Origin: Clostridiales bacterium VE202-21
GTDB lineage: Bacteria > Bacillota > Clostridia > Lachnospirales > Lachnospiraceae
DNA length: 64,000 nt
Direction: 5' to 3'
NCBI GenBank assembly: GCA_000509105.1
Contig: BAIF02000008.1
Span: forward strand, 1 to 64,000
Of the stretch, positions 4,691 through 23,534 are shown one piece after another. How positions within the stretch are numbered: position 1 is the first letter of the stretch; every line of letters begins with the position of its first letter. Below the pieces are notes generated by a model, which made no database searches, was not told the DNA's origin, and saw only the letters and a program-made list of their open reading frames with translations. A program made the position numbers and the translations under genes.

Positions 4691-4694
4691 CGGG

Positions 4695-6285: not shown

Positions 6286-6287
6286 AT

Positions 6288-6317
6288 GTAACCGTTCAGA
6301 CTTGCCCGAACGGTTAC
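6288..6317. repeat. Perfect 10-bp inverted repeat between trmN6 and rsmI
   Basis: GTAACCGTTC and GAACGGTTAC flank a 10-base loop. There is no T-run after it, so it may be a processing or stability hairpin rather than a terminator. A related but decayed copy lies at 7226-7255, after rsmI. Confidence 0.6.
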
Positions 6318-6361
6318 CAATAGATAGCGGGTGAGACATCTGGGGCTGATAAGGAGGATTT

Positions 6362-7201
6362 ATGTCAGGAATATTATACTTATGCGCTACCCCGATCGGG
6401 AATCTTGAGGACATGACGTTTCGGGTGATACGGACTCTGAAGGAGGCTGATCTGATTGCGGCGGAGGATACGCGCAATAGTATCAGGCTGCTGAATCATT
6501 TTGAGATACGTACTCCTATGACAAGCTACCATGAATATAATAAGTTTGAGAAGGGCCGAAAACTTGTGGAAAAACTGCTGGAGGGCCAGAATATTGCGCT
6601 GATTACTGATGCGGGAACACCCGGGATCTCAGATCCGGGAGAGGAACTGGTCCGAATGTGCTGCGAAGCGGGAATCACGGTGACCTCTCTTCCGGGTGCG
6701 TCGGCTTGCATTACGGCGCTGACAATATCCGGTCTGTCCACCAGGAGGTTTGCTTTTGAAGCCTTTCTTCCCACGGACAAGAAGGAGCGGGAGTGGGTGC
6801 TGGAAGAACTGGAGGGAGAGTTTCGGACAATCATTTTGTATGAGGCGCCCCACAGGCTTGTGAAAACGTTGAAGCTGCTTCTGGAACGTTTGGGGAACAG
6901 ACGGATTACCGTCTGCAGAGAGCTGACGAAAAAGTATGAGACTGTATTTACCTCGACCCTTGAGGAGGCGGCTTTGTTTTATGGGGAGCATGAGCCAAAG
7001 GGGGAATGTGTGCTTGTGGTTGAAGGCCGCAGCCGCAGTGAGGCTGTCCGAGAAGAACAGGAAAAATGGGAAGCGATGAGCATTGAGGCACATATGGAAT
7101 ATTATACTTCCAGGGGAATGGCAAAAAAAGAGGCCATGAGGATGGTAGCAAAAGACCGTGGAGTTCAGAAACGGGAGATTTACAATTATTTGGAACGTTA
7201 G
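6362..7201 (+). CDS. rsmI: 16S rRNA (cytidine(1402)-2'-O)-methyltransferase
   Basis: RsmI methylates the ribose of C1402 in 16S rRNA, close to the ribosomal P site. The tetrapyrrole-methylase fold is recognised from LYLCATPIGNLEDMTFR at the N-terminus, AEDTRNS near 39, ITDAGTPGISDPG near 81 and YEAPHR near 161. The 279-aa length is normal. An AAGGAGG site lies just before the ATG. It closes the holB-ricT-trmN6-rsmI block. Confidence 0.95.
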   Translation: MSGILYLCATPIGNLEDMTFRVIRTLKEADLIAAEDTRNSIRLLNHFEIRTPMTSYHEYNKFEKGRKLVEKLLEGQNIALITDAGTPGISDPGEELVRMCCEAGITVTSLPGASACITALTISGLSTRRFAFEAFLPTDKKEREWVLEELEGEFRTIILYEAPHRLVKTLKLLLERLGNRRITVCRELTKKYETVFTSTLEEAALFYGEHEPKGECVLVVEGRSRSEAVREEQEKWEAMSIEAHMEYYTSRGMAKKEAMRMVAKDRGVQKREIYNYLER

Positions 7202-7582
7202 AGATAACTATATTGTTAAGAATTTGCAACAGTTCAAACCTAGCTTAACGGTTACGAGAATTAGTCAACATAGACAGAGAGATTAAAAATTTGCATTGGA
7301 ATTTTAGAAAATTGTAACATTGACGATTTGGGAAGGAAAGTATAGAATAAATTACAAGTTCAAGAAGACCAGGCAGACGAAGGCGTCTCATTTAAAGGAG
7401 GCCCTTTTTCTTTTAAGATTTCCGGACAGGACATTTTGGACAGACATCGGGTAAGACAGCAGGACAGACATCAGGTACAGTCAGCAGGTAAGGCATCTTG
7501 AAGAAACATCGGATCAGGCATCCATGCAGAGCATGATAGGAGTTCCGGAACATACAGCATCAGACTTGGATTGAACTATGTT
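7202..7582. other. Intergenic region after rsmI with imperfect repeats
   Basis: About 380 bases with no credible gene. It contains a decayed copy of the 6288 hairpin (7226-7255) and a possible promoter with TTGACG near 7320 and TAGAAT 17 bases later, followed by a small hairpin AGACG/CGTCT. At 7438-7486 two imperfect tandem units begin GGACAGACATC. A short RNA starting near 7356 and ending near the T-run at 7415 is possible but unproven. Confidence 0.35.
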
Positions 7583-7615
7583 AGGGCGTATTACATTTTA
7601 TGTAATGCGCCTTTT
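7583..7615 (+). repeat. 33-bp hairpin repeat, left copy (terminator-like)
   Basis: The stem GGCGTATTACA pairs with TGTAATGCGCC and is followed by TTTT, so it can end transcription from the left. The same 33 bases, with one change, occur in the same orientation at 19923-19955. The two copies bracket the AT-rich transketolase cluster. Confidence 0.8.
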
Positions 7616-7640
7616 CATGTGGTGTGCGTGTTTACTATAC

Positions 7641-7703
7641 AAAAAAATCACCTTTCCGTTATAATAAGCCTGTTCAAGCCGAGTTATAACGGAAAAGTGG
7701 TTA
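7641..7703 (-). terminator. Terminator of the GntR-SDR operon
   Basis: Read on the minus strand, TAACCACTTTTCCGTTATAA pairs with TTATAACGGAAAGGTGATT across a 19-base loop that has its own small stem. It ends in a run of T (7641-7647). It follows directly after the stop of the short-chain dehydrogenase gene. Confidence 0.85.
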
Positions 7704-7728
7704 TTTATGTTTTTGTAAGTAGTGAAAC

Positions 7729-8514
7729 TTATTTTGGCATATAACGTCCGCCGTCTACGCCAATTACCTGACCACACTGATGACATCCAGTAATATCAGA
7801 GGCAAGGAAGAGAACTGCATACGCTACATCCCAGGGAGTTCCAACCTGCCCTAAGGGGCTAAAAGTCTTCCAATACTCTAAAGTTTCTGGATTTGAAGTG
7901 AATGCCGGCCACGGTGAACCTGATGTGAAATGTCCATCAATTGGAGGAGTTGCACCTGGAGCAACGCAGTTGATACGGATGCCGTCTTTTGCAACATCCT
8001 GTGCAATTGTCTGAGCTAAGTGGATGACAGCACTCTTTAATGCACCGTATACACACTCATCAGAGTCGTGAACACGTCCACAAGTAGAAGCGTTATTTAC
8101 AAAATTGCCATGTCCTTGTTTTTGCATGATTGGTAAAATATATTTCCAAGCATTCATACATGATAAAAAATTAATTTCGTAAATTTTTTGCCATAAGTTT
8201 CTATCGAGTTCGAGGAATTTTCCAAGAGAATCCCAGCCAACACCGTGATAAACACTGTCGATAGCACCATGCAGTAAAGCAGATTCTGCAGCATGAGCTG
8301 TATCTTCGTAACTTGTTGCATCGCATTTAACGATTTCGGCCCATGGAGCACCTGCCTCAAGAGCCTCTAAAGCAACTTTTTCACAAGATTCTAAATCTCT
8401 TCCAGCAATTGTTACACCAGCACCTTCCTGAGCAAATGCGAGAGTAACACATCTTCCAATATTAGAATGTCCCCCAAATAATAAAATATTTTTGTTTTTT
8501 AAACCTAAATCCAT
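7729..8514 (-). CDS. Short-chain dehydrogenase/reductase
   Basis: NAD(P)-dependent oxidoreductase of the classical SDR family, about 261 aa from the preferred start. The Rossmann nucleotide site is LLFGGHSNIGR near the N-terminus, NNAST is the active-site strand, and the catalytic pair is Tyr and Lys in YGALK with a Ser upstream. The C-terminal GQVIGVDGGRYMPK is typical. I chose the ATG before DLGLKN because AAGGTGG lies at the right distance; an upstream ATG exists six codons earlier. It sits 52 bases after the GntR gene on the same strand and probably oxidises a sugar or polyol, or reduces a ketose, in the pathway of this cluster. The exact substrate is unknown. Confidence 0.88.
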   Translation of the reverse strand: MDLGLKNKNILLFGGHSNIGRCVTLAFAQEGAGVTIAGRDLESCEKVALEALEAGAPWAEIVKCDATSYEDTAHAAESALLHGAIDSVYHGVGWDSLGKFLELDRNLWQKIYEINFLSCMNAWKYILPIMQKQGHGNFVNNASTCGRVHDSDECVYGALKSAVIHLAQTIAQDVAKDGIRINCVAPGATPPIDGHFTSGSPWPAFTSNPETLEYWKTFSPLGQVGTPWDVAYAVLFLASDITGCHQCGQVIGVDGGRYMPK

Positions 8515-8566
8515 ATAGGTACCACCTTTCATAATTTAGACGATATGTGGCGGTACACAAGGTTAA

Positions 8567-9367
8567 TTAACGCTGATGTGAGAGCATTGGAACGGGCTTA
8601 AAGTCAAAATAAACATTGTTATTATTGTTTTCGCTGAAACAATCAACGCTAAAACAAACAGAATATAAATCCTCATCAGGTCTGTGATGAGTAATTCCCC
8701 ACCATAGAGGAATATGATCTTTGATATAACCAATACTTTCAATGATGGAATAAGGGGTTCCAATAGGTCTTTCTAAGATAGAAGACTCTTTTTCATCAAG
8801 AACACCATGAAGAAATCTTTCTTCATAAAAAGTGATATCAATTGAAAAATCGTTTGTAAAAAAATCATTATAATTATCAATTGTAAGTCCAGGGCAATGT
8901 TTGCATACGATATAACGCAATTCATGAAGAAACGGAATATCGTGGTGAACATAACGGAGACTGTCAAGTACAAGAATTGTATCATCATCTTCAACCGCTA
9001 ATACACGTTTTAAGTGACGGCTTAAATCTTTTCCTGTCCGCTGTTCGATTGAGCGAAATCTTGAACGGAAAGAAATTCCCTGTGCTTTTGCGGATGCAGT
9101 TAAGCTGGTCATTGTAAAATAATCATTTAAAGTCTGTTTTGAACGAACAAAGGTACCGACTCCTTTTCGAAACTCTAAGTATCCTGCGCTAATCAGATTA
9201 CTAATCGCTTTATTGGAAGTTGAACGACTAACGCCATATTGCTGGCAGATCGCACGTTCTGCTAAAAATTTATCGCCAGGCTGATATTCATCCGAAAGTA
9301 TACGATCACGCAAAAGTATATATAGCTGTTCATATAAACTAGTCGTATTTAATACATTTGATGTCAT
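8567..9367 (-). CDS. GntR-family regulator with UTRA domain
   Basis: Transcription factor of 266 aa. Residues about 9-75 form the winged helix-turn-helix of the GntR family (QYGVSRSTSNKAISNLISAG), and residues about 95-235 the UTRA ligand domain of the HutC subfamily, which usually binds a sugar phosphate or small metabolite. It is transcribed away from the first transporter operon. A 15-bp palindrome TGTGG-N5-CCACA is seen before this gene and twice before the transporter gene, and again before the second transporter. It is therefore the likely local regulator, mostly a repressor in this family. Confidence 0.9.
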   Translation of the reverse strand: MTSNVLNTTSLYEQLYILLRDRILSDEYQPGDKFLAERAICQQYGVSRSTSNKAISNLISAGYLEFRKGVGTFVRSKQTLNDYFTMTSLTASAKAQGISFRSRFRSIEQRTGKDLSRHLKRVLAVEDDDTILVLDSLRYVHHDIPFLHELRYIVCKHCPGLTIDNYNDFFTNDFSIDITFYEERFLHGVLDEKESSILERPIGTPYSIIESIGYIKDHIPLWWGITHHRPDEDLYSVCFSVDCFSENNNNNVYFDFKPVPMLSHQR

Positions 9368-9404
9368 AGGAAAAATGTCCTTTTCTTTAAATTATTTGTG
9401 AGCA

Positions 9405-9419
9405 TGTGACCCTACCACA
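9405..9419. promoter_or_regulatory. Putative GntR operator, site 1
   Basis: TGTGACCCTACCACA has the form TGTGR-N5-CCACA shared with the sites at 9592, 9684 and 13971. It is 38 bases upstream of the GntR start codon, suitable for autoregulation. Confidence 0.6.
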
Positions 9420-9546
9420 TAATTTTATTCTGAAAAGACGAAGAAGTCAAGAGGTTCATTTAAGTATGCAAAAAAAAGAATTATATAATATAAACAAAAA
9501 AATGTAGTAAAAAATATGAAAAATAGAGAAAATGATGATTAATATA

Positions 9547-9575
9547 TTGACAAATAAAACAAAGCCGAGTATTAT
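9547..9575 (+). promoter_or_regulatory. Sigma-A-type promoter of the first transporter operon
   Basis: TTGACA (9547-9552) and TATTAT (9570-9575) are 17 bases apart. The predicted start of transcription near 9582 lies just before the operator at 9592, so bound repressor would block the polymerase. Confidence 0.7.
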
Positions 9576-9590
9576 AATTCTAAAGATGAT

Positions 9591-9607
9591 ATGTGGACAG
9601 ACCACAT
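9591..9607. promoter_or_regulatory. Putative GntR operator, site 2 (best palindrome)
   Basis: ATGTGGACAGACCACAT is a near-perfect palindrome, TGTGG-N5-CCACA. It directly follows the predicted transcription start of the first transporter operon. Confidence 0.7.
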
Positions 9608-9683
9608 AGTGGCTACACAAAAAAGTGGACGGATTAATGTAATTAAAAAAAAGAAGGGAGGTTTGGTAAAAAAAGGGAAAAAT

Positions 9684-9698
9684 ATTGGACAGGCCACA
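9684..9698. promoter_or_regulatory. Putative GntR operator, site 3
   Basis: ATTGGACAGGCCACA keeps the TGG-N5-CCA core and the complete right half of site 2. It lies about 34 bases before the transporter start, between promoter and ribosome site. Confidence 0.55.
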
Positions 9699-9731
9699 TA
9701 ACAACTAAAGAAAAGGAGATGAGAAAACGTA

Positions 9732-11087
9732 ATGGGTAATTCAGTTGATTTCAAAGAAGACATTAAATTACGAGAAAAATTGTGTTACACCTCAGGTAAC
9801 GTAGCAGCTGTATTAGTTAATACAACATTATCCAGTTACTTGATGTATTTTTACACGGACATCTTAGGAATCGCAGCATCAGCAGCGGCAGCAATCTTTT
9901 TATTCTCGCGTATTTGGGATGCTTTTAATGATCCATTAATGGGAATGGTTGCGGATCGCACCAGAAGCAGATGGGGTACATATCGGCCATGGATATTATG
10001 GGTTGCTTTACCAATGACAATTTGCGGAATCTTATGTTTCACTGCACCTGATTTTTCCTATACAGGGAAATTAATATGGGCATGGGTAACCTACATAGCA
10101 TGTGGTATGTGTTACACAGGGATTTATATTCCATATGGTGTTATGAATAACGTTATGACGAGGGATATGAATCAAAGATTAACATTAGCTACATTCAGAG
10201 AGACAGGTTCAGATATTGCTTCTATGATCATTGGTTTCACAACAATGCCGCTCGTACTTGCAATTGGTCATGGAAATGAAGCAAAAGGATTTCAGGGAAC
10301 AATGACTGTTTATTCTTTAATCGGATTAGCTTGTTTAGTAATCTGCTTCCTTGGAATTCGAGAAAGACGTACTCCTGAAATCAGTAAACTTACATTAAAA
10401 GAATCTATTGGATCTTTGAAGGGGAACAAACCTGCATTAGTAATCATGTTAGCTATGATAGTGATGAACGGAATCGTAATGTATGAATTTAGCTGGTTCG
10501 TTTACTATATTAAATATTTCTTACATAGAATGGATTTACAGCCAATTATCATGACAATGATTCCCGGTGTTGCTCTTATTTGTAAATTTATTATTAATCC
10601 CATTGCACAGAGGGTTGGAAAGAAACCGATGTTAATCGTTGGCAGCTGCATTTATTTGTTAGATGGAATATTGTTCTTAGCTGCCGGATCAAATCTAGTA
10701 TTAGCGATTATAGCATGTGCAGGATTTGGGGCAGGACTTACTTTCTTCTTTGTAATGGTATGGGGGAGCGTTCCTGATATTGTAGAGTACGGGGAGTGGA
10801 AGACAGGAGTCAGAGCACCTGGTTTCCTTTATTCTATGGGAACATTATCAAATAAACTTGGCTTAGGATTTTCTGGTTTATTAGCTGGATGGATGCTTAC
10901 AGTAATTAACTATGTTCCAGGTGCTGAACAAACAGCGGCAGTACAGCACGGAATTTACCTTTCAACAGGTATTCCATTAGTAGTTGCAGGAATTCTTTGT
11001 GTCATCCTTTTCTTATTCTATGATTTAACACAGGAAAAATATAACGAGATTCTTACAGAACTTGCAGAAAGAAATGCACAAAAATAA
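9732..11087 (+). CDS. GPH-family sugar:cation symporter (first copy)
   Basis: Membrane symporter of 451 aa from the glycoside-pentoside-hexuronide (MelB/XylP) family, which imports sugars with Na+ or H+. About 12 membrane segments are seen. The family loop between helices 2 and 3, DRTRSRWGTYRPW, is near residues 75-87, and WNDP-like DAFNDPLMG comes before it. A strong AAAGGAG site precedes the ATG. It heads the operon transporter-dehydrogenase-transketolase and has two GntR operators in front. It resembles the second transporter at 14022 from the N-terminal LREKLCYTSGN onward, so the two are paralogues. The sugar is unknown. Confidence 0.92.
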   Translation: MGNSVDFKEDIKLREKLCYTSGNVAAVLVNTTLSSYLMYFYTDILGIAASAAAAIFLFSRIWDAFNDPLMGMVADRTRSRWGTYRPWILWVALPMTICGILCFTAPDFSYTGKLIWAWVTYIACGMCYTGIYIPYGVMNNVMTRDMNQRLTLATFRETGSDIASMIIGFTTMPLVLAIGHGNEAKGFQGTMTVYSLIGLACLVICFLGIRERRTPEISKLTLKESIGSLKGNKPALVIMLAMIVMNGIVMYEFSWFVYYIKYFLHRMDLQPIIMTMIPGVALICKFIINPIAQRVGKKPMLIVGSCIYLLDGILFLAAGSNLVLAIIACAGFGAGLTFFFVMVWGSVPDIVEYGEWKTGVRAPGFLYSMGTLSNKLGLGFSGLLAGWMLTVINYVPGAEQTAAVQHGIYLSTGIPLVVAGILCVILFLFYDLTQEKYNEILTELAERNAQK

Positions 11088-11127
11088 ATCCCTTAAAGGG
11101 AAATAAATAAATAAAAGGAGAAACAAA

Positions 11128-12138
11128 ATGAAAATGAAATCAGCATTATGGGACAAAATCGGACATATGTCTGTAGTTGAAATGGATGTTCCAGAACCAA
11201 AGAGAAATGAAGTAAAAATTAAGATCGCATATTGTGGTATCTGTGATAATGATCCTCAGATCATTAACGGGGGATATCCAATCCTTCAGCCACCCATGAC
11301 TATGGGTCATGAGTACACGGGAACAATCGTTGAAGTTGGAGAAGATGTAACTACATGTAAAATAGGAGATCGAGTTGTAGCCAATATGCATGCTTTCTGT
11401 GGAGCCTGCCATTACTGCCATAACGGTATGGAGCACTTCTGCGAGAATATGACTTTCGCTACAGGTGCGTTTGCTGATTATGCTACAGTTGCAGCAACAG
11501 CAGTTACAAAAATTCCAGATTCAATGACATTTGAGCAGGCTGCATTGGCAGAGCCACTGAGTGCAGCAATTCACGGTATGGACATTCTGCAGATGTCTGC
11601 TGGAAAATCAGTAATCATCTATGGCGGAGCAGCTATCGCCCAGATGTACATTATGCTTGCCCACCGTGCAGGAGCCAGTAAAATATTCATGGTAGATCCA
11701 GTAGAAGAGAAGAGAAAAATGGCACTCAAATGTGGCGCAAACTTGGTAATTGACCCAGCATCTCAGAGCGTAAAAGAAGTCGTCGCAGAAGAGACAAATG
11801 GATATGGCGTAGATTATTGTATCGATGTAAGCGGATCTGTAGAGAATGCAGAAGAGTGTGTTGAGATTGTAGCAAAATGTGGACGTATCTTATATGCTGC
11901 ATCTTACGACTTTGGTGACAGACCAATGAATTTGAACTTATTCACTGCAAGATGTGAGAAAGAATTAAGTATTGTAACATCGCAGCAGTCTCCATACTCA
12001 TTTGATCGAGCAGTAGCTTTAATGGAAAACATGGACATGAGACATTTAATCACAGGAATTTATGATTTAGATTGTCTTGATGAGGCATTAGAAAATGTAT
12101 TTACAGGAAAAACAATCCGTGTATTAATCCGCCCTTAG
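11128..12138 (+). CDS. Zinc-dependent medium-chain alcohol dehydrogenase
   Basis: NAD(P)-dependent dehydrogenase of 336 aa, related to sorbitol, xylitol and threonine dehydrogenases. Catalytic zinc ligands are Cys in CGICDND (near residue 36) and His-Glu in GHEYTG (near 61). The structural-zinc loop CGACHYCHNGMEHFC (near 90) has all four Cys. The nucleotide site is a modified Rossmann motif, YGGAAIAQMYIM. It lies in the operon between the first transporter and the first transketolase, 40 bases after the former, with an AAAGGAG site. A role in oxidising an imported polyol to a ketose, or reducing an aldehyde product of the transketolase, is inferred. Confidence 0.9.
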   Translation: MKMKSALWDKIGHMSVVEMDVPEPKRNEVKIKIAYCGICDNDPQIINGGYPILQPPMTMGHEYTGTIVEVGEDVTTCKIGDRVVANMHAFCGACHYCHNGMEHFCENMTFATGAFADYATVAATAVTKIPDSMTFEQAALAEPLSAAIHGMDILQMSAGKSVIIYGGAAIAQMYIMLAHRAGASKIFMVDPVEEKRKMALKCGANLVIDPASQSVKEVVAEETNGYGVDYCIDVSGSVENAEECVEIVAKCGRILYAASYDFGDRPMNLNLFTARCEKELSIVTSQQSPYSFDRAVALMENMDMRHLITGIYDLDCLDEALENVFTGKTIRVLIRP

Positions 12139-12158
12139 TATGTTGGAGGTAAAAAAGA

Positions 12159-12986
12159 ATGACTAGAGAAGAACTAATCAAACAGTTGACTGGAAAGTCA
12201 AAAGAAATGAGATTAAATATTTTGGATATTGCAGGGAAATGTGAGAACACACATGTTCCATCTGCAAGTTCATGTTGTGATATCGTAACAGCACTATATT
12301 TCCACTTTATGAACTATGATCCAAAGAACCCGTTGGATAAGAACAGAGATCGTTTCATTTTAAGCGCAGGACATAAGAGTATGGTCCAATACGCCGCATT
12401 GAATTTACTTGGTGTTATTCCAGATGAAATGATTGATACAATCGAACAATATAATAGTCCATTAGCTGGGCATCCTGTATATAAAAAATGCCCAGGAGTA
12501 GAAGCATCTACGGGTTCATTGGGACATGGCTTATCTATTGCAGCAGGAATGGCCCAGGCTGCAAAAATGGATGGTGAAGATTACAAAGTATATTGTATAG
12601 TTGGAGATGGCGAGAGCAATGAGGGATCAATTTGGGAAGCCGCGATGTCAGCTGCTAAATACAAATTAGATAATCTCGTTATGATTCTTGACAGAAATAG
12701 GATGAGTGCAACATATCCAATATCCATGCCAATGACAGACTATAAAGCTGCATTAGAGTCTTTTGGATTTGCCTGCAGAGAAATCAACGGAAACAATATG
12801 GCAGAAGTTGTTGAAGCGTTAGAAACACTTCCATACGCAGAGGGAAAACCAAACGCAATTATAGCAAACACTATTAAAGGTTATGGAATTCCATTTGCAA
12901 TAAATAATTCAAAATGGCATGCTGCATATTGGTCTCCTGAGAAAGTAGCAGAAGCAAAAAAACTTATTGAAGAAATGGAAGGATAG
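12159..12986 (+). CDS. Transketolase N-terminal subunit (first pair)
   Basis: Thiamine-diphosphate-binding half of a split transketolase, 275 aa. TGSLGHGLSIAAGM (near residue 116) and the cofactor motif GDGESNEG (near 148) are intact; the end of that motif reads ILDRN rather than the usual NN. KWHAAYW near the C-terminus keeps the conserved His of transketolases. It must pair with the C-terminal subunit that starts five bases after its stop. Split transketolases of this type include AptAB (apulose-4-phosphate) and SqwGH (sulfofructose) as well as housekeeping enzymes, so a special substrate is likely here. Coding DNA is rich in TTA and ATA codons. Confidence 0.9.
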   Translation: MTREELIKQLTGKSKEMRLNILDIAGKCENTHVPSASSCCDIVTALYFHFMNYDPKNPLDKNRDRFILSAGHKSMVQYAALNLLGVIPDEMIDTIEQYNSPLAGHPVYKKCPGVEASTGSLGHGLSIAAGMAQAAKMDGEDYKVYCIVGDGESNEGSIWEAAMSAAKYKLDNLVMILDRNRMSATYPISMPMTDYKAALESFGFACREINGNNMAEVVEALETLPYAEGKPNAIIANTIKGYGIPFAINNSKWHAAYWSPEKVAEAKKLIEEMEG

Positions 12987-12991
12987 GTCTT

Positions 12992-13933
12992 ATGGAACGA
13001 AAATCAGAAAATATCCAGCGTGCGATTGTACAGGAATTAAATAATATCATGGTTGAAAACGATCAGGTCGTTGTTGTTAATGCAGATATAGCACTTTTAT
13101 TTAAAGATGGACCAGACTCAATCTCTTGTCCGGACAGGGTGCTTGATGTAGGTATTGCAGAGCAGAATATGATTGGTTTTGCATCAGGATTGGCTTACTC
13201 AGGAAAAACAGTATTTACAACAACAATTGCTGAAATGGCAGTAGCAAGAGTTATAGAGCAGATTCGATTAGATGGATGTTATCCAGATCTCAACATCAAC
13301 ATGTTTGGACAGGGCAGAGGATTTGCTTATGGTATTGGTGGAAACTCACATATTATTACCGAGGACTTTGCAATGCTGCGCGGTATTCCTAATATTAAAA
13401 TTATTATTCCAGCAGATGCAAGAGAAGCAAGAAAAGTTATGCATGAAGCATTGAGTGTAAATGGAACAAAATATATCGCTATTTCCAGAGGAAATACGCC
13501 AAATGTATATGAAGATGACTACGAGTTCCACATAGGAAAAGCAGTAACAATGAGAGATGGAATGGATGTAACAATCATTGCTGTTGGTGATATGGTTGCT
13601 CCGGCACTTGACGCAGTAGAAATCCTTAAAGAAAAAGGAATCAATGCAAGAATGATTAATATGCATACATTGAAACCGTTGGATCATGAAGCAGTGATAA
13701 AAGCAGCTAAAGAGACAGGCGCAATATTAACAGTAGAGACACACAATGTTTTAGGCGGTCTTGGATCAGCTGTTTCAGAAGTTGTTTGTGAGGAATGCCC
13801 TATTCCAATGAAAAAAATGGGCGCTCCAGACCAGTTCTCTAAAGTTGGACCAATGAATGAATTAATAGCACACCTTGGTCTTGATGCAGAGCACATTGCT
13901 GCTGAAACAGAAAAACTCATTCAGAGAAAATAA
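12992..13933 (+). CDS. Transketolase C-terminal subunit (first pair)
   Basis: Pyrimidine-binding and C-terminal domains of the split transketolase, 313 aa. GIAEQN (near residue 54) contains the catalytic Glu that activates thiamine. The C-terminal part has the TH..LGGLGSAV type of motif (VETHNVLGGLGSAVSE). It is the last gene of the first operon. After it comes an 88-base gap with a further GntR operator before the second transporter. Confidence 0.9.
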   Translation: MERKSENIQRAIVQELNNIMVENDQVVVVNADIALLFKDGPDSISCPDRVLDVGIAEQNMIGFASGLAYSGKTVFTTTIAEMAVARVIEQIRLDGCYPDLNINMFGQGRGFAYGIGGNSHIITEDFAMLRGIPNIKIIIPADAREARKVMHEALSVNGTKYIAISRGNTPNVYEDDYEFHIGKAVTMRDGMDVTIIAVGDMVAPALDAVEILKEKGINARMINMHTLKPLDHEAVIKAAKETGAILTVETHNVLGGLGSAVSEVVCEECPIPMKKMGAPDQFSKVGPMNELIAHLGLDAEHIAAETEKLIQRK

Positions 13934-13970
13934 AAATTAAAATATCGCCGTCTTATTTATTTTTGCCATA

Positions 13971-13985
13971 AGTGGAAAGTCCACA
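13971..13985. promoter_or_regulatory. Putative GntR operator, site 4
   Basis: AGTGGAAAGTCCACA matches the TGTGG-N5-CCACA operator in nine of ten arm bases. It lies 37 bases before the second transporter gene, tying both operons to the same regulator. A promoter here is not clear. Confidence 0.6.
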
Positions 13986-14021
13986 TGTCAACATTTATCA
14001 TGTGAACAAAAAGGAGTTTAT

Positions 14022-15362
14022 ATGGAAAATCACAAAATCCCATTAAAAGAAAAATTATGTTATACATCAGGCAACTTATCACAATGTTTAATTAACAACA
14101 CAATGTCAAGCTTCCTGCTGTTCTTTTTTACAGATATCTCAAAAATTCCGGCAGCTTCTGCAAGTTTGATTTTTATGATCGGTACAATCCTTAACATTAT
14201 TATTGGACCAGTAGTCGGAACACTTTCTGACCAGACTAGAACAAAATTAGGATGTTATAGACCATGGGTAATGTATGGTGGATTTGCCGTATCCATTATT
14301 TCTGCATTATGTTTTGTTGCTCCCCCATTCGGAACATCAGGACGTGTTATTTGGGCGGGTATTGCTTACGTATGCTGGATCATTGCTTTCTCTGCAGCAT
14401 ATACACCATACGGTGTTATGAATAATGTTATGACAGAAGATACGATCGAAAGAGGAACACTGGCTACATTTAGAGAAACAGGTTCTGATATTGCCGGAAT
14501 GGTAGTAGGCAGTTTAACACTGGCTTTGATCGGTTTCTACGGACATGGTCAGGATACAAAAGGTTACACACCAATGATGATTACTTATGCAGTATGCTCT
14601 ATTATTTTGATCATTATCTGTGTAAAGGGAACAAAAGAGAGACTTCTTCCGGTAGAGGAGAAATCATCTATAGCATCTTCTTTTGGAACATTAAAAGGAA
14701 ACCGTCCGGCAATTATCATTTACATTGCAATGATCGTTATGAACCTTGCAGTTATGATGCAGTTTAGCTGGGTTATGTACTATTGTACATACTGTTTAGG
14801 AAATGGAGAATTAACAGGTTCTTTCATTAGTATGTGGTGTTTTGTAGCATTCCTCTGCAAATTTATTATTATGCCGATTATCAAAAAAATGGGTAAGAGA
14901 AACGCTATGATTATAGGAAGCGCAGCATATCTTATCGATGGAATTCTCTTTTTGGCTGCAAAAGATAATATGATTTTGAACTATGCGGCTGTAGTATTCT
15001 TCGGTATTGGATTAACGGTATTCTTTACAACAATTTGGGGGGCTTTACCAGATGTAGTAGAGTATGGCGAGTACGTAAGCGGTATCAGGGCTCCAGGTTT
15101 CTTATATTCCTTGGGCGCAATGTTCAACAAAGTAGGGAATGGACTTAGTGGCGTAGTCGCTGGTCTGGTGCTTACATTTATTGGATACAATGCAGCCGGA
15201 GAACAGACAGCAAGTACAATTGCGGGTATTCGCATGGCAGCCGGTGTACCTTTAATTATAGCAGGTCTCGTATGTATCATCTTATTTGTGTTCTATAACT
15301 TAAGCACAAAAGAATACAACGAAGTGGTTGAAGAACTTAATAAACGCAGAGAGAAGCAGTAA
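14022..15362 (+). CDS. GPH-family sugar:cation symporter (second copy)
   Basis: A paralogue of the 9732 transporter, 446 aa, with about 12 membrane segments and the family loop SDQTRTKLGCYRPW near residues 68-81. An AAGGAG site precedes the ATG. It heads a second operon with RidA, DhaL, DhaK, an RpiB-like isomerase and another transketolase pair. Two importers of one family under one operator suggest two related substrates, or one substrate and a released intermediate. Confidence 0.92.
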   Translation: MENHKIPLKEKLCYTSGNLSQCLINNTMSSFLLFFFTDISKIPAASASLIFMIGTILNIIIGPVVGTLSDQTRTKLGCYRPWVMYGGFAVSIISALCFVAPPFGTSGRVIWAGIAYVCWIIAFSAAYTPYGVMNNVMTEDTIERGTLATFRETGSDIAGMVVGSLTLALIGFYGHGQDTKGYTPMMITYAVCSIILIIICVKGTKERLLPVEEKSSIASSFGTLKGNRPAIIIYIAMIVMNLAVMMQFSWVMYYCTYCLGNGELTGSFISMWCFVAFLCKFIIMPIIKKMGKRNAMIIGSAAYLIDGILFLAAKDNMILNYAAVVFFGIGLTVFFTTIWGALPDVVEYGEYVSGIRAPGFLYSLGAMFNKVGNGLSGVVAGLVLTFIGYNAAGEQTASTIAGIRMAAGVPLIIAGLVCIILFVFYNLSTKEYNEVVEELNKRREKQ

Positions 15363-15365
15363 ATT

Positions 15366-15737
15366 ATGGGAAGGTTTGAATATTTAGAAGGAGAAGTTCC
15401 AGATATACCTTGTGCAGCCGCCGTAAAAACATCAACACATGTGTATGTTTCTGGTACAGCAGTGTTTCAGGATGAACAGGGAAATGTCATTTCTGATGTT
15501 AAGGATCAGACATGTAAGTGTTTGAATAAGATTGAACAGATTTTGTCAAAATGGGACTTAACTCGTAAAGATATTGTAATGGTAACTGTATTTGTTCGCG
15601 GGAAAGAAAATTTTATGGGTATGAATGAAGCATACAGAGGATTCTTTGGTGATGTATTTCCATCAAGAACAGCATGTGTGTCTGATCTTGGCCATCCAGA
15701 TATGTTAGTTGAAATTTCCTGTGTAGCTTGTTTATAA
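15366..15737 (+). CDS. RidA family protein (YjgF/UK114)
   Basis: A 123-aa protein of the RidA family. True RidA members hydrolyse reactive enamines and imines, while many relatives have other roles in catabolic operons. FPSRTACVSDL (near residue 98) carries the Arg that is essential in RidA, and the C-terminal VEISCVA matches the family. The start is three bases after the transporter stop. A reactive enamine, or a related unstable carbonyl compound, in this pathway would explain its presence; that is inference. Confidence 0.88.
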   Translation: MGRFEYLEGEVPDIPCAAAVKTSTHVYVSGTAVFQDEQGNVISDVKDQTCKCLNKIEQILSKWDLTRKDIVMVTVFVRGKENFMGMNEAYRGFFGDVFPSRTACVSDLGHPDMLVEISCVACL

Positions 15738-15797
15738 GTAAATTTAGATAGCCGGAGGGGCATTTGAGATGATCAAATGCCCAATATAGGAGGATAT

Positions 15798-16430
15798 ATG
15801 GAAAAAATTACACTTCAGCAAGTGCAGACAATTGTTAGAACAATGGCAAAAACAGCAGAAGATAATGAAGAATACTTCTCAGAATTAGATGGCGTAATGG
15901 GGGATGCAGATTTTGGAGTGTCATTAGCTGCTGGTTTTAGGAGCGTAATGTCAAAATGGGACAGCTATGATATGACATCTATCGGAAGTTTTCTTTTAAA
16001 TGTAACTTCTGTAATTACAAGTAGCACAGGTGGATGTTCAGGTCCAGTCTGGGGGACACTTTTCATGAGATGCGGGATGGCATTTCGTGATAAAACAGAA
16101 ATTACTCTTGAAGAGGCTTCGGCAGGATTAAAGAGTTCTATTGAAGGGATTATGAAAAGAGGTGGCGCACACCTCGGTGATAAAACTTTATTAGATGCTT
16201 TTCAGGCAATCGTTGAATCTTTTGATAAAGCGGATAAAAACGGAACATTGATGGAAGCTCTCGAGGCAGCAGCAGACGCAGCTTATGAAACAAGAGAAAT
16301 TACAAAATCATGGATTGCAAAACGAGGACGCCAGTCATTTACCGGAGAGCGTAGTATTGGAACCTATGACCCAGGCATTGTAGCAGTCGGTGATATGGCT
16401 AAAGCAATCGTAGAAGCGTTAAAAGCATAA
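15798..16430 (+). CDS. dhaL: DhaL-like dihydroxyacetone kinase nucleotide subunit
   Basis: DAK2-domain subunit, about 210 aa, that holds ADP/ATP for the dihydroxyacetone kinase family. LDGVMGDADFG (near residues 29-39) has the three Asp residues spaced D-x4-D-x-D that bind Mg-nucleotide in DhaL. STGGCSGPVWGTLF and GDKTLLDAF are further family motifs. I chose the ATG at 15798 because AGGAGG lies directly before it; an in-frame ATG exists seven codons upstream. No DhaM-like PTS subunit is nearby, so the kinase is probably ATP-dependent. Its substrate could be a C3 or C4 ketose. Confidence 0.88.
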   Translation: MEKITLQQVQTIVRTMAKTAEDNEEYFSELDGVMGDADFGVSLAAGFRSVMSKWDSYDMTSIGSFLLNVTSVITSSTGGCSGPVWGTLFMRCGMAFRDKTEITLEEASAGLKSSIEGIMKRGGAHLGDKTLLDAFQAIVESFDKADKNGTLMEALEAAADAAYETREITKSWIAKRGRQSFTGERSIGTYDPGIVAVGDMAKAIVEALKA

Positions 16431-16443
16431 GGAGGAGCTCATT

Positions 16444-17436
16444 ATGAAGAAAATTATGAATGATGCAAATGATTTTGTAAAAGAAATGATCGAAGGTGTA
16501 TACCTTGCCAATAAAGATAAATTAGAGTGGGTACCTGAAATTAACACATTATATCGTAAAAATATTCCGGAAGGAAAAGTTACTATAATGCAGGGATCAG
16601 GATCAGGACATGAGCCGGCACATATTATGTGTGTAGGCAAAGGTATGTTGGATGCCTCTTGTCCTGGAAATGTATTTGCTGCCCCACCAATGGATTTTGT
16701 ATATCAATGTACAAAGAAAATTGCTTCTGATGCAGGTGTTCTTCACATTATCAATAACTATCAGGGAGACCGTATGTCATGGGATATGGGTCGGGAGATG
16801 GCTGAGATGGATGGCATCAAAGTTGGTGTAGTAGTAGTAAATGATGACGTTTCTGTAGAAGATAGTTTATACACCGTTGGACGTCGTGGCGTTGCTGGTA
16901 ACTTCTTTGTAATCAAATGCTGCGGAGCTGCTTCAGAGAAAGGTGCTTCATTAGAAGAATTGGTAGCATTAGGAAATAAAGTAAATGCAAATGTCCGTAC
17001 AATGGGAATGGCCTTATCATCATGTACACCTCCTTCAAAAGGAACAGCAATCTTTGAAATTGAAGATGATGAAATCGAGATGGGCGTTGGTATTCATGGG
17101 GAACCAGGACGTCGTAGAGATAAAATCAAATCTGCACATGAAATCGTAGAAGAAATGTTCAAAGCAGTTTCTGAAGATCTTCCATTCAAAAAAGGTGACC
17201 GTGTAGCATTAATGATTAATGGTATGGGCGGAACTCCTATCAGTGAATTATATATTACATACAGAGAAGCAGCTTTAATGTGCGAAGAAAAAGGTCTTAC
17301 TATTGTTAAAAATTATGTTGGCAACTACTGTACATCGCTAGAAATGGCAGGATTCTCGTTAACATTACTTAAATTAGATGATGAGATGGAAGCTTTACTT
17401 GATGAACCGGCAGAGATTCCTGTTCGTATTTTTTAA
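16444..17436 (+). CDS. dhaK: DhaK-like dihydroxyacetone kinase substrate subunit
   Basis: Substrate-binding subunit, 330 aa, of the dihydroxyacetone kinase family. GSGSGHEPAH (near residue 51) is the family loop with the conserved His. GIHGEPG places His218 exactly where E. coli DhaK forms a covalent hemiaminal with its substrate. It follows DhaL by 13 bases with an AAGGAGG site. Family members also phosphorylate erythrulose, so with the neighbouring isomerase and transketolases a tetrulose or branched ketose is as likely as dihydroxyacetone. Confidence 0.92.
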   Translation: MKKIMNDANDFVKEMIEGVYLANKDKLEWVPEINTLYRKNIPEGKVTIMQGSGSGHEPAHIMCVGKGMLDASCPGNVFAAPPMDFVYQCTKKIASDAGVLHIINNYQGDRMSWDMGREMAEMDGIKVGVVVVNDDVSVEDSLYTVGRRGVAGNFFVIKCCGAASEKGASLEELVALGNKVNANVRTMGMALSSCTPPSKGTAIFEIEDDEIEMGVGIHGEPGRRRDKIKSAHEIVEEMFKAVSEDLPFKKGDRVALMINGMGGTPISELYITYREAALMCEEKGLTIVKNYVGNYCTSLEMAGFSLTLLKLDDEMEALLDEPAEIPVRIF

Positions 17437-17455
17437 TCACTAGGAGGCGTATAAA

Positions 17456-17896
17456 TTGAAAATAGCGGTTGGTTGTGATCCTAATGCAGAAAACTTTAAA
17501 AAAGAACTGATTACCTATATTCAGAAATTAGGACATGAGGTAGAAGATTTTGGAAGTACAGATCCAATTTATGCAAATGTAGCAATTGCTGTTGGAGAGG
17601 CAGTAGCTTCAAAACAGTATGACAGAGGCATATTGATTTGTGGAACTGGTATCGGAGTCTGCATTGCAGCAAACAAAGTAAAAGGAGCATATGCAGCATT
17701 AGTTAATAATGTTTATCAGGCACAGAGAGCTGAATTAAGTAATCACGCAAACATTATGACAATGGGTGCTCAGGTAATAGGTATTGAATTAGGAAAATGC
17801 CTGGTGAAAGAGTATCTTGGCCGTACATTTGATCCAAATAGCCGATCGGTACCAAAAATCAAGAGAATTTATGATTATGAGGGGGCAGAAGGCTAA
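17456..17896 (+). CDS. RpiB/LacAB-family sugar-phosphate isomerase
   Basis: Aldose-ketose isomerase of the RpiB/LacAB family, 146 aa. The catalytic base Cys62 in LICGTGIGVCIAANK is present. The usual N-terminal DHAG reads DPNA here, so the phosphate or substrate contact from His is missing, and the canonical REHNDAN helix reads ELSNHAN. Translation starts at TTG, which an AGGAGG site supports at eight bases distance. It ends on the first base of the next gene. A tetrose or modified-sugar isomerase is therefore more likely than plain ribose-5-phosphate isomerase. Confidence 0.87.
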   Translation: MKIAVGCDPNAENFKKELITYIQKLGHEVEDFGSTDPIYANVAIAVGEAVASKQYDRGILICGTGIGVCIAANKVKGAYAALVNNVYQAQRAELSNHANIMTMGAQVIGIELGKCLVKEYLGRTFDPNSRSVPKIKRIYDYEGAEG

Positions 17897-18765
17897 TGCA
17901 GAATCAGAAAAGAATTAAGCAATTAGAACTTTATGCAGCAAAATGCAGACAAAATGTTATGCATATGATTCGTGCAGGTGGCCACGGTCATGTAGGTGGA
18001 GCATTGTCAGCTATTGATGTAGTAACCGCGCTCTATTTTGATAAGATGAATGTTGATCCAAAAAATCCAAAAATGGAGAACAGAGACCGTTTTTTATTAT
18101 CTGCAGGACATAAATGCTTATCTCAGTATGCAGTTTTAGCTGAAAAAGGTTATTTTGACAAAGCTATCCTTAAAAGTTATGGGTCATTTAAGTCGCTGAT
18201 ACCAGGACATCCGGATATGCACAAATTACCAGGTATAGAAGCTAATACAGGGGCACTTGGACATGGAATGTCTATTGCTGCAGGTATGGCAATGGCTGCA
18301 AAACAAAACGGCAGCAGCTTTAACGTTTATGTTGTTACAGGAGATGGCGAATTGCCAGAAGGATCAAACTGGGAAGCAGCTGCAGCAGCAGCAAAGTTTG
18401 GTGTAGATAATTTAACTGTTTTTGTCGATAATAATGGACTTCAAATCAGCGGGAAAGTAACTGATGTAATGAATATGGAGGATATAAGTGGAAAATTCAA
18501 ATCATTTGGATGGTCTGCAATTGAGATTGATGGCAATAACATGGAAGAACTAGTTAACACATTGGATAAATTACCAATTCAGGAGGGAAAACCGACAGCT
18601 GTTATCATGCATACAACAAAAGCAAAAGGTCTTTATGCAGGAGAAAATAAACCGGAGTATCATTTCTGGAATCCAACAGAAGAAGACTTAGATAAAGCAG
18701 ATAAAGATTTAGAGATGCTCGTTGCAAAACTGGAAAAAGAACTGGAGGAAAAGAGGAATGACTGA
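17896..18765 (+). CDS. Transketolase N-terminal subunit (second pair)
   Basis: Thiamine-diphosphate half of a second split transketolase, 289 aa. GGHGHVGGALSAIDV near residue 29 has the conserved His residues, TGALGHGMSIAAGM is near 117, and GDGELPEG (near 149) with VDNN completes the cofactor motif. The C-terminal segment ENKPEYHFWNP differs from the first pair and from housekeeping enzymes, so it probably has another substrate. The gene touches the isomerase upstream and overlaps the next gene by eight bases. Confidence 0.9.
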   Translation: MQNQKRIKQLELYAAKCRQNVMHMIRAGGHGHVGGALSAIDVVTALYFDKMNVDPKNPKMENRDRFLLSAGHKCLSQYAVLAEKGYFDKAILKSYGSFKSLIPGHPDMHKLPGIEANTGALGHGMSIAAGMAMAAKQNGSSFNVYVVTGDGELPEGSNWEAAAAAAKFGVDNLTVFVDNNGLQISGKVTDVMNMEDISGKFKSFGWSAIEIDGNNMEELVNTLDKLPIQEGKPTAVIMHTTKAKGLYAGENKPEYHFWNPTEEDLDKADKDLEMLVAKLEKELEEKRND

Positions 18766-19690
18766 AAAATTTGATCCAAGAAAAGTGTTTGGACAGGCTG
18801 TAACAGAAGTTGCAGAACAAAATAAAAATGTTGTTGTTCTTTCTGCCGATAGTGGAAAAAGTTCAGGATTTGGCGACTTTATGAAAAAATATCCAGAACG
18901 TTACTATGAATGTGGGATTATGGAGCAAGGTGTTGTAGGAATTGCAGCTGGAATGGCAACTGTAGGGATGATTCCCGTATTCTGTGCAATCGCTCCATTT
19001 GTAACATGCCGTCCATATGAAATGGTAAGAAATGATATAGGTTATATGCGTCAAAATGTAAAACTAGTAGGGCGTAACTGTGGATTTACTTATTCAGACC
19101 TCGGAGCAACACACCAGAGTTTGGATGATTTTGCAATTATGCGGATGATTCCTGGTATGACAATACTTGCACCACAGGATCCAAATGAGATTAAAGCAGC
19201 TGTACGAGCTATGATAGAACATGAAGGTCCGGTATATATGAGAGTTGGAAATCCAAAGATTTCAAATATCTTACCAGAGAAAGAATTTGTAATTGGAAAA
19301 GGAACAGTTCTTGAAGATGGTGAAGATATTACAATTATTTCTACTGGATCAACAACAGAAGCAGCTTTAACAGCTGCAAAAGAGTTAAAGGAAAGAGGAA
19401 TTTCTGTACGTGTAATTGGTATGCCGACAGTTTATCCGTTAGATACCAAACTTGTTGAAGAGTCTGCTAAGAAAACTGGTGTTATTCTTACCGTTGAAGA
19501 GCATTATGCAGAAGGTGGACTGGGAACACTTGTAACGGAGGCATGTAGTGCATTTTCTGATATTAAAGTATATCGTTTAGGTGTACCTGCAATATATGCA
19601 GCTACAGGTAGCTATCCAGAGTTACTTCATTACTATCATATCGATGCGGAGGGTATCGCAGGTGAAGTAAAAAAAGTGTTAAGTAAATAG
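18758..19690 (+). CDS. Transketolase C-terminal subunit (second pair)
   Basis: Second half of the second transketolase, about 310 aa. GIMEQG (near residue 53) carries the catalytic Glu. GATHQSLDDFAIMR and VEEHYAEGGLGTLV are family segments. I chose the ATG at 18758 because GGAGG and AGAGGA lie just before it and the protein then begins like its relatives; an in-frame start 12 codons earlier lacks this support. It ends the second operon, and a strong terminator follows 90 bases later. Confidence 0.9.
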   Translation: MTEKFDPRKVFGQAVTEVAEQNKNVVVLSADSGKSSGFGDFMKKYPERYYECGIMEQGVVGIAAGMATVGMIPVFCAIAPFVTCRPYEMVRNDIGYMRQNVKLVGRNCGFTYSDLGATHQSLDDFAIMRMIPGMTILAPQDPNEIKAAVRAMIEHEGPVYMRVGNPKISNILPEKEFVIGKGTVLEDGEDITIISTGSTTEAALTAAKELKERGISVRVIGMPTVYPLDTKLVEESAKKTGVILTVEEHYAEGGLGTLVTEACSAFSDIKVYRLGVPAIYAATGSYPELLHYYHIDAEGIAGEVKKVLSK

Positions 19691-19781
19691 TAAAAGAGCT
19701 GTCGTGCGGAAAATTTTTATTACCGGTGAAGCTGCAGCCGCAGCAGAATAAAGTATCCATCCACATAAAAACCTACCCTAT

Positions 19782-19814
19782 AGTGTGCTGTTAAAAACGG
19801 CACACTTTTTTTTT
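19782..19814 (+). terminator. Terminator of the second transketolase operon
   Basis: AGTGTGCTGTT pairs with the complementary ACGGCACACT across a short A-rich loop and is followed by nine T. It lies about 90 bases after the last transketolase gene. Confidence 0.9.
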
Positions 19815-19922
19815 GAGATAATGAAAGTATCAAAGGGCTGCGGGATGTTTCTATGATGACTCAGAATACGAATGAAAGCCGGGCTTACATTTGCCTGCAA
19901 GAATTTTAAAAAGCTGGCGAGG

Positions 19923-19955
19923 AGGGCGTATTACATTCTATGTAATGCGCCTTTT
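19923..19955 (+). repeat. 33-bp hairpin repeat, right copy (terminator-like)
   Basis: Same 33 bases as 7583-7615 with one change in the loop, in the same orientation, 12,340 bases away. GC-rich stem GGCGTATTACA/TGTAATGCGCC, then TTTTT. Together the two copies bracket the AT-rich cluster. Confidence 0.8.
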
Positions 19956-19999
19956 TATTTGCAGATTTATTGAAAAAAATAGAATAGCTGCGGAAAAAG

Positions 20000-20022
20000 A
20001 AAAAGGGGGCTGCCCCTTTTTT
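20000..20022. terminator. Bidirectional terminator-like hairpin
   Basis: AAAAGGGG and CCCCTTTT enclose the loop GCTG, with A-runs before and T-runs after, so it could act on both strands. The rest of 20023-20290 is very AT-rich and shows no gene. Confidence 0.6.
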
Positions 20023-20290
20023 ATTCGTTTTTACGAAGATAAGGCTGTTTAGTAAATATTTCAGTCTATCTCTTTTATTGGACTTAAAAAACGCAAGATA
20101 AAATAAGGAGAAATAAAAAAAGTTCGTCAAAATGAACATAATAATAGTTTTAAACAGAATAAATAATGGTAATAATGCACTAGATGATTTCGCTAAATAA
20201 TAAAAGTTAGTATAAAAATATAATAAAAACGAAATAAAACAGAAAATAAATGTTGAATATGCACAACTGCAATGCTAGAATGTTAAAAAA

Positions 20291-20365
20291 TGAAATCGCG
20301 ATTCATTATATGAAATGCAAGTCCTGCATTTTTCACTTATTACCTAAAAATGAAATGGTGTTTCA
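20291..20365. promoter_or_regulatory. Three TGAAA...TTTCA palindromes, probable IclR operators
   Basis: TGAAATCGCGATTCA (20291-20305), TGAAATGCA...TGCATTTTTCA (20311-20334) and TGAAATGGTGTTTCA (20351-20365) lie in a row before the aminotransferase start. All share TGAA(A) and (T)TTCA arms. The only regulator encoded in the operon is of the IclR family, whose members bind such palindromes. The assignment is inferred. Confidence 0.5.
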
Positions 20366-20390
20366 CAATGTGGGACAAAGGAGGAATCAT

Positions 20391-21548
20391 ATGGAAATAT
20401 CCAGAAATACGCAAGGTATAAAACCATCCTCCATACGGAAGATGTTTAATAAAGCATTGCAGTATGATGATGTAATTAGTTTTACATTGGGGGAGCCGGA
20501 TTTTACAGCTTCCGAAAATGTCGTAGAAGCAGGATGCCGGGCCATCCGGCAGGGATATACAAAATATTCCGCGAATGCAGGGCTGCTTCCGCTTAGAAAA
20601 GCGATTGGTGAAGCCCTAAATAAAGAGACTGGGCAGAACTATGATGCGGATCGTGAGATTACGGTAACAGTAGGGGCCATGGGGGCTTTGTATCTTTCAC
20701 TGAAAGTACTCATCAATCCGGGGGATGAAGTCATTATATGTGAGCCTTACTGGACGAATTATGTACAGCAGGTAAAGATGTGTGATGGGGTTCCTGTATT
20801 CGTCATATGCAGAGAAGAAAATAACTTTATACTGGATGTAAATGATCTGGAGAAGGCGATTACGGAGAAGACAAAAGCGGTTATATTAAACTCCCCTTCC
20901 AATCCGACCGGAGGAGTGCTTGATATGCAGAGCCTGGAAGCAATTGCACAGACAGCCAAAAAGCACGGGCTTGCGGTGATCTCGGATGAGGTATACAAAA
21001 CCATTGTTTATGATGGAACGAAAGCTCCCTCCATTGCATCCGTGGAAGGAATGAAAGAACGTACCATTGTGATTAACAGTTTCTCAAAAGGGTATGCCAT
21101 GACAGGGTGGAGAGTGGGATATGCCGCAGGACCGGAAGAGGTGATAAGCAATATCACGAAACTGCAGGAAAATGTGGCGGCATGCGCAGCTATGCCCAGC
21201 CAGTATGCGGCCCTGGAAGCTTTGAACGGCCCGCAGGATTACAAGGAATATATGGTGGGGAAGTATAAGGAAAGGCGCGATGTGATGGTGGCAAGGCTGA
21301 ATGCAATTCCCGGCATATCCTGCAGGGCGCCAAAAGGTACCTTCTATGCGTTTGTGAATATCAGGAATCTTCCTTTGACATCAGAAGAGTTTGCAGACAG
21401 GCTTTTAGAAGAAAAACAGGTGGTGGTAGTTCCGGGAACTGCTTTTGGCGAAGGCGGAGAAGGATATATCAGGCTGTCTTATGCAACTTCTCTGGAAGCG
21501 ATTGAAAGAGGCATGGATTTAATCGAAGAATTTGTAAAAACCCTTTAA
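20391..21548 (+). CDS. Class I/II aminotransferase
   Basis: PLP-dependent aminotransferase of fold type I, about 385 aa, similar to aspartate/aromatic-type enzymes. NSPSNPTGG (near residue 168) and SFSKGYAMTGWRVGYA (near 231), whose Lys binds PLP, are clear, and an Arg in YIRLSYA near the C-terminus binds the substrate carboxylate. The ATG at 20391 has an AAAGGAGG site; an upstream in-frame ATG would add 47 residues from the operator region and is unlikely. As first gene of the hydantoin operon it probably converts the released amino acid into a 2-keto acid. Confidence 0.9.
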   Translation: MEISRNTQGIKPSSIRKMFNKALQYDDVISFTLGEPDFTASENVVEAGCRAIRQGYTKYSANAGLLPLRKAIGEALNKETGQNYDADREITVTVGAMGALYLSLKVLINPGDEVIICEPYWTNYVQQVKMCDGVPVFVICREENNFILDVNDLEKAITEKTKAVILNSPSNPTGGVLDMQSLEAIAQTAKKHGLAVISDEVYKTIVYDGTKAPSIASVEGMKERTIVINSFSKGYAMTGWRVGYAAGPEEVISNITKLQENVAACAAMPSQYAALEALNGPQDYKEYMVGKYKERRDVMVARLNAIPGISCRAPKGTFYAFVNIRNLPLTSEEFADRLLEEKQVVVVPGTAFGEGGEGYIRLSYATSLEAIERGMDLIEEFVKTL

Positions 21549-21567
21549 CAGCCGGGAGGTAACCTGA

Positions 21568-22742: not shown

Positions 22743-22757
22743 TGAGGGAGATGCAGT

Positions 22758-23522: not shown

Positions 23523-23534
23523 GAGGAAATATGT

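Follow-up and report, generated by a model that had tools for sequence, protein, structure and literature searches.

Within a 64,000-nucleotide stretch of a draft Lachnospiraceae genome (contig BAIF02000008.1 of Clostridiales bacterium VE202-21; hereafter the window), positions 7729–19690 hold 13 intact open reading frames (ORFs) that, judging from their sequences, probably serve in the breakdown of a sugar or sugar alcohol that is short or branched. The cluster combines two split transketolases, TK1 (TK1N and TK1C) and TK2 (TK2N and TK2C), with a zinc dehydrogenase (ZnDH), two GPH symporters (GPH1 and GPH2), the kinase subunits DhaL and DhaK (DhaKL) and an RpiB-like isomerase. Its halves resemble steroid-, tetritol- and apiose-degrading systems, and their combination is uncharacterised so far. 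All gene families were as expected: the ORF list and Pfam and NCBIfam profile matches recovered, as intact ORFs, every family named in a first-pass annotation of the window, along with the two complete, divergent transketolase pairs that it had described (44% identity between N halves, 34% between C halves). The two-operon layout that it had proposed also agrees with our data, an 88-bp gap with an operator-like palindrome of its own lying upstream of GPH2.

Two transketolases with altered pockets

Transket_pyr has eight matches in the whole genome (5.3 Mb, a 96.8% complete draft, whose sampled relatives are consistent with Lachnospiraceae); the TK1 and TK2 pairs are therefore additions to the normal enzymes. 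We compared eight pocket columns across split transketolases, in which the canonical pattern is R[SA]FHEDHR. This housekeeping pocket is present in neither pair: TK1 reads QLIGIGHR and TK2 reads RSINDLHN, both departing from the canonical phosphate residues; neither is of the housekeeping type, in support of the first-pass reading. With most phosphate-gripping residues lost, the TK1 pocket looks suited to an unphosphorylated donor. Pairs linked to ZnDH genes in other genomes mostly keep (R/K)SFH, followed by a changed E-D loop and then HR.

TK2 belongs to a clade with 100/100 tree support that includes a Cryobacterium transketolase and has the common pocket RSINDLH(N/G). The AptB proteins of E. 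coli, Rahnella and Caballeronia, from apulose-4-phosphate transketolases, read (A/R)TANPLH(G/N). The changes common to TK2 and AptB (His to Asn, Asp to Leu and loss of the last Arg) are found in TK2 only of the two window pairs, and a C4-phosphate donor may be their common cause. Grouping of TK2 with AptAB had support of 95/92 with one AptAB in the tree; this fell to 87/87 once three AptAB and relatives were included, which weakens the case for a close sister relation. TK1 was unplaced in the transketolase tree, and a scan of genome contigs with TK1C returned no relative above 43% identity and no ZnDH or DhaKL neighbours.

In the window's genome, contig C120 encodes a further split transketolase pair (locus L145, 5788–9381), whose pocket, TGFEYWHL, is strongly altered. 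The pair follows genes for TRAP transporters, a 2-hydroxyacid dehydrogenase and an HpcH-like aldolase.

A modified kinase and an RpiB-like isomerase

DhaK keeps His56, Asp109 and His218 (E. coli numbering) and carries the substitutions T79A, S80A and K104N relative to the E. coli protein; A79, A80 and N104 are common to the DhaK proteins of Cryobacterium and of another Lachnospiraceae genome, G201. No DhaM was detected in the window's genome at its level of completeness, and ATP is therefore the likely phosphate donor of DhaKL.

RpiB keeps the ICGTGIG catalytic loop, with His11 replaced by Pro and His102 by Asn (numbering of PMC4783025); H102N abolished activity on ribose 5-phosphate (PMC4783025). 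Among solved structures, 5IFZ gave a higher score with the protein (116.5 bits) than canonical RpiB did (99.2 bits). 5IFZ closely resembles the RpiB from an ery-type operon of Shinella, and the window protein is nearer to EryI than to ribose-5-phosphate isomerase. A C4 4-phosphate is unable to close a furanose ring, so the loss of ring-handling residues in RpiB would fit a C4 substrate. RpiB relatives with 55–62% identity (L014–L018) were rejected as members of orthologous clusters, having no TK1, TK2, ZnDH or GPH beside them. Also in Lachnospiraceae, a second type of DhaK, with a GHKPA motif, is paired with RpiB (L018 10077–16956, L020 8157–10431); L018 also encodes a sugar kinase and a class II aldolase-like protein, making it another uncharacterised sugar cluster.

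A candidate regulatory unit

At 38.0%, the GC content of the cluster is below that of the sequence before it (43.8%) and after it (43.4%). An operator-like palindrome, ATGTGGACAGACCACAT, stands downstream of a near-consensus promoter (9547–9575), although promoter-like matches across the region as a whole are not above those in shuffled sequences. With at most two mismatches the palindrome has six matches in the 64-kb window against 2.73 expected, so that, taken by itself, it is not significantly enriched across the window. The three sites with no more than one mismatch (9404, 9591 and 13970) nevertheless all fall in intergenic spaces of the cluster. From the predicted operators and base composition, we infer one GntR-controlled unit with two transcription starts, possibly acquired from elsewhere. 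A genome-wide regulon was not supported, as five other high-scoring genomic palindromes that were examined all lie in or at coding regions. No Rfam match was found within 4000–24000 of the window.

Modules conserved in other genomes

Relatives of TK2 at 58–69% identity occur in 5 of 397 sampled family genomes, in four of which an RpiB 68–75% identical to that of the window is encoded nearby. The partner of RpiB–TK2 is an FGGY kinase in two loci (L073, L074) and a 434-aa transaldolase-fold protein in three (L072, L075, L076). The latter belongs to a family of 434–441 aa with a weak TAL_FSA match (L072 5364–6668, L075 7967–9271, L144 7268–8593). We rejected the idea that this neighbour is specific to TK2: a 57% homologue lies in a nucleoside cluster of the window's genome without TK2, where it adjoins a DeoC-like gene.

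In G201, DhaK and DhaL are 85% and 72% identical to the window proteins, and this DhaK is the only match at E ≤ 1e-105 among 328 genomes besides the window's own. The same genome holds the best ZnDH (43%), followed by a TK1N with 59% identity over 175 aa that is broken off by the contig end (L121), as well as the best TK2 relative (69%); its DhaKL genes lie downstream of a ribose-type ABC transporter. These genes sit on separate contigs (C123, C124 and C28) that may or may not be adjacent.

The combined kinase, isomerase and transketolase logic put forward by the first-pass annotation recurs outside the family, on the Cryobacterium plasmid pA10BH1 (L103 6983–15812). Here, the gene order is aldolase–HAD–DhaL–DhaK–aquaporin–HbpS–TPI–RpiB–TKN–TKC–GntR, with TKN and TKC denoting transketolase halves, and identity with the window is 55% for DhaK, 44% for DhaL, 57% for RpiB, 53% for TKN and 50% for TKC. 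The plasmid cluster is apparently a complete, portable tetrulose or dihydroxyacetone (DHA) route on a small replicon. On Enterococcus gilvus pCR1A, the order is RpiB–Fsa–TPI–DhaM–DhaK–DhaL–TKN–TKC. No characterisation of either plasmid cluster was found in the literature searched. For the window cluster as a whole, the searches brought up no close orthologue to which a sugar has been assigned.

The first half of the cluster also recurs. GPH–ZnDH–TKN–TKC stands in the same order at two Clostridia loci (L083, L090) and ZnDH–TKN–TKC at four more (L079, L081, L082, L085), with identities of 31–43%. Such cassettes of ZnDH and split transketolase are widespread in Clostridia and may pass for desmolase genes in screens.

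A proposed pathway and its alternatives

We tentatively favour a single catabolic cluster under GntR control that handles a polyol or ketose of short chain length, the simplest candidate being a tetritol, for example D-threitol. In this scheme, the GPH symporters would import the substrate and ZnDH would form an alpha-ketol by oxidising the carbinol that adjoins a terminal CH2OH, comparable to the reversible action of DesC at C20. TK1 would transfer a two-carbon ketol from this ketose, still unphosphorylated, to an aldose phosphate; DhaKL would phosphorylate, probably using ATP, a ketose or aldose that is short but exceeds DHA in size; the EryI-like RpiB would interconvert linear tetrulose 4-phosphate and tetrose 4-phosphate; and TK2 would feed the pentose phosphate pool with a ketol taken from a ketose 4-phosphate. 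That two dedicated transketolases with distinct pockets, a DhaKL whose specificity is new and an EryI-like isomerase carry out successive ketol transfer on one substrate, TK1 acting on the free ketose from the DesC-like dehydrogenase and TK2 on a ketose 4-phosphate, is possible but somewhat doubtful.

Several observations weigh against the tetritol scheme. The RpiB score of 138.8 bits is below the NCBIfam DerI equivalog cut-off of 240; the cluster lacks a TPI-like isomerase, which an L-erythrulose branch would need from elsewhere; and the role of TK2 is unexplained if the product is simply erythrose 4-phosphate, because ordinary transketolases suffice. The scheme leaves RidA and the short-chain dehydrogenase/reductase (SDR) unexplained. 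Among relatives, the G201 TK2 sits in a different gene context, and in several genomes RpiB–TK2 is partnered not by DhaKL but by an FGGY kinase or by a transaldolase-like protein.

The main rival to a tetritol substrate is apiose or apiitol, which ZnDH or the SDR would convert to apulose, with TK1 (free apulose to DHA, then DhaKL), TK2 (apulose 4-phosphate to DHA phosphate) or both cleaving at the tertiary carbon. The AptB-type changes of TK2 and its weak sister position are in keeping with such a route, as is the absence, from TK1 and the ZnDH-linked transketolases, of the Asp in contact with the substrate's hydroxyl group; DhaKL would suit a DHA product. We nevertheless think this route unlikely: the window cluster has neither an AplK-type FGGY kinase nor a fucose-isomerase-like gene as in the Rahnella apiose cluster, its DhaK pocket is unlike those of DHA kinases, its EryI-like RpiB has no counterpart in the apiose clusters examined, and the sister relation to AptB is itself weakly supported. 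We also dropped RpiB as a candidate apiose isomerase, the Rahnella cluster using the fucose-isomerase-like gene instead. Less probable still is the first-pass reading, in which a C6 ketose would give up two carbons in each of two rounds of sulfo-transketolase-like chemistry, with RpiB converting the C4 aldose to a ketose and DhaKL phosphorylating at the C4 stage. An RpiB adjoining a transketolase does parallel the logic of SqwI and SqwGH, and TK1 would suit an unphosphorylated donor. However, the RAFDR motif of SqwGH, which replaces the RSFHR of normal transketolases (PMC11659671), occurs in neither window pair (TK1 has Q-L-I-G..R and TK2 R-S-I-N..N), so the proposed likeness to SqwGH was not borne out and we dropped membership of that group. 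Further, SqwGH is one enzyme that does both rounds (PMC11659671), and RpiB–TK2 and ZnDH–TK1 are separate modules in many genomes.

This separateness might instead mean that two unrelated clusters have come to be neighbours, a desABCD-like module and a DhaKL–RpiB–TK2 tetrulose module, since each half occurs alone (ZnDH–TK in L079, L081–L083, L085 and L090; DhaKL–RpiB–TK2 in L103). The common palindromes with a single local regulator, the one low-GC block, and the presence of both the closest ZnDH–TK1N and the closest DhaKL in G201 make that improbable. For TK1 being a desmolase proper, cleaving a steroid side chain or another non-sugar diol, there are the desABCD gene set and the top structural match of ZnDH, 4OH1 (162.4 bits), which is C. 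scindens DesC (PMC13348027). The next match, a threonine dehydrogenase, follows closely at 150.4 bits; with so small a margin, the desmolase link is architectural and no proof of steroid use. As the ZnDH–TK cassette is spread over Clostridia and desmolysis leaves no role for DhaKL, RpiB and TK2, we regard this as very improbable.

If the tetritol scheme is correct, it would define a subfamily of DhaK that acts on a new substrate and a TK2 clade with a defined pocket signature spanning Bacillota and an Actinomycetota plasmid, and would build a bridge from steroid desmolase-like operons to sugar catabolism. It gives concrete test substrates (tetritols, tetruloses and apulose) for a small set of enzymes.

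Genes, sites and flanking region

Table 1. Genes and predicted regulatory sites of the cluster (window positions)
Feature	Position	Strand	Basis
SDR dehydrogenase	7729–8532	−	Pfam/NCBIfam SDR; no equivalog cut-off reached
gntR, GntR/HutC-type (UTRA) regulator	8567–9367	−	Profile matches
Operator-like palindrome with one mismatch, on the promoter side of gntR	9404–9420		Motif scan
Promoter-like TTGACA-17-TATTAT before GPH1	9547–9575	+	11/12 consensus positions
Operator-like palindrome ATGTGGACAGACCACAT, perfect	9591–9607		Motif scan
Degenerate palindrome copy before GPH1, 3 mismatches	9683–9699		Motif scan
GPH1 cation symporter	9732–11087	+	TIGR00792, 389 bits (cut-off 231)
ZnDH, threonine-dehydrogenase/DesC-like	11128–12138	+	Top PDB match 4OH1
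TK1N, thiamine diphosphate (ThDP)-binding half	12159–12986	+	Profile matches
TK1C, second half	12992–13933	+	Profile match; pocket Q-L-I-G-I-G-H-R
Operator-like palindrome, 1 mismatch, directly before GPH2	13970–13986		Motif scan
GPH2 cation symporter	14022–15362	+	Profile match; 47% identity with GPH1
RidA/YjgF-family protein	15366–15737	+	PF01042
DhaL kinase subunit	15777–16430	+	TIGR02365, 161 bits (cut-off 138); Asp metal-binding motif GDxDxG kept
DhaK kinase subunit, altered pocket	16444–17436	+	Profile match, alignment
RpiB-like, EryI-like sugar-phosphate isomerase	17456–17896 (TTG start)	+	Profile and PDB matches
TK2N	17896–18765	+	Profile match; relatives at 59–69%
TK2C	18758–19690 (ORF opens TTG 18722)	+	Profile match; pocket R-S-I-N-D-L-H-N; start probably ATG 18758 rather than TTG 18722
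Terminator-like hairpin after TK2C	19782–19806	+	

Beyond the cluster, an allantoate/hydantoinase-type M20 amidohydrolase at 21568–22742 is divided between two ORFs (profile positions 1–95, then 120–411), by a frameshift, as a pseudogene or through an assembly error. It adjoins an aminotransferase and an Asp/Glu/hydantoin racemase.

Comparison with known systems

The steroid-17,20-desmolase operon desABCD of Clostridium scindens comprises two transketolase halves (desA and desB), a dehydrogenase (desC) and a Na+/melibiose-type symporter (desD), and similar neighbourhoods are found in a few clostridia, including C. ljungdahlii, C. leptum and others (PMC3735941). This is the same gene set as GPH1–ZnDH–TK1N–TK1C, in both cases within one operon. 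The gene order differs, TK1 is likened to DesAB by gene set and not by sequence, and desABCD is without the DhaKL–RpiB–TK2 half. The apulose-4-phosphate transketolase AptAB, from the D-apiose cluster of E. coli SE15 (PMC13001218), is likewise a split transketolase for sugar catabolism, with a pocket pattern like that of TK2 and an identity of 35–42%. Its cluster has an FGGY kinase, an RbsABC-type transporter and SDRs, where the window has DhaKL, GPH and RpiB; an AplK-type FGGY kinase with ApsI or an SDR pair is absent from the window cluster, which holds no FGGY kinase and one SDR, at only 27%.

The plasmid clusters of Cryobacterium and E. gilvus unite DhaL, DhaK, RpiB and a split transketolase, as does the window. 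The former has a TK2-type pocket and adds TPI, an aldolase and a HAD phosphatase; the latter adds Fsa, TPI and DhaM, and its transketolase is canonical. Erythritol and tetrulose catabolism employs EryI/DerI isomerases and DhaK-type erythrulose kinases. The window cluster likewise has a DhaK-type kinase, and its RpiB is nearer to EryI than to ribose-5-phosphate isomerase. It differs in that this RpiB falls short of the DerI cut-off, in having no TPI-like partner and in its two additional transketolases. SqwI, from the Sqw pathway, we take to be RpiB-like. In that pathway, a transketolase pair stands beside a C4-sugar isomerase (SqwGH–SqwI; PMC11659671), as in the window; no SQ (sulfoquinovose) isomerase or sulfoacetaldehyde enzymes are recognisable among the 13 cluster genes.

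We file the cluster under no known system, because in every case one or more defining features were absent or left undecided. The first-pass statement that the genes match no pathway stands for the whole combination, for which we found no characterised match. It does not extend to the parts, which have relatives left unnamed there: desABCD, the DhaKL–RpiB–transketolase clusters of Cryobacterium and E. gilvus, and the EryI-like RpiB proteins.

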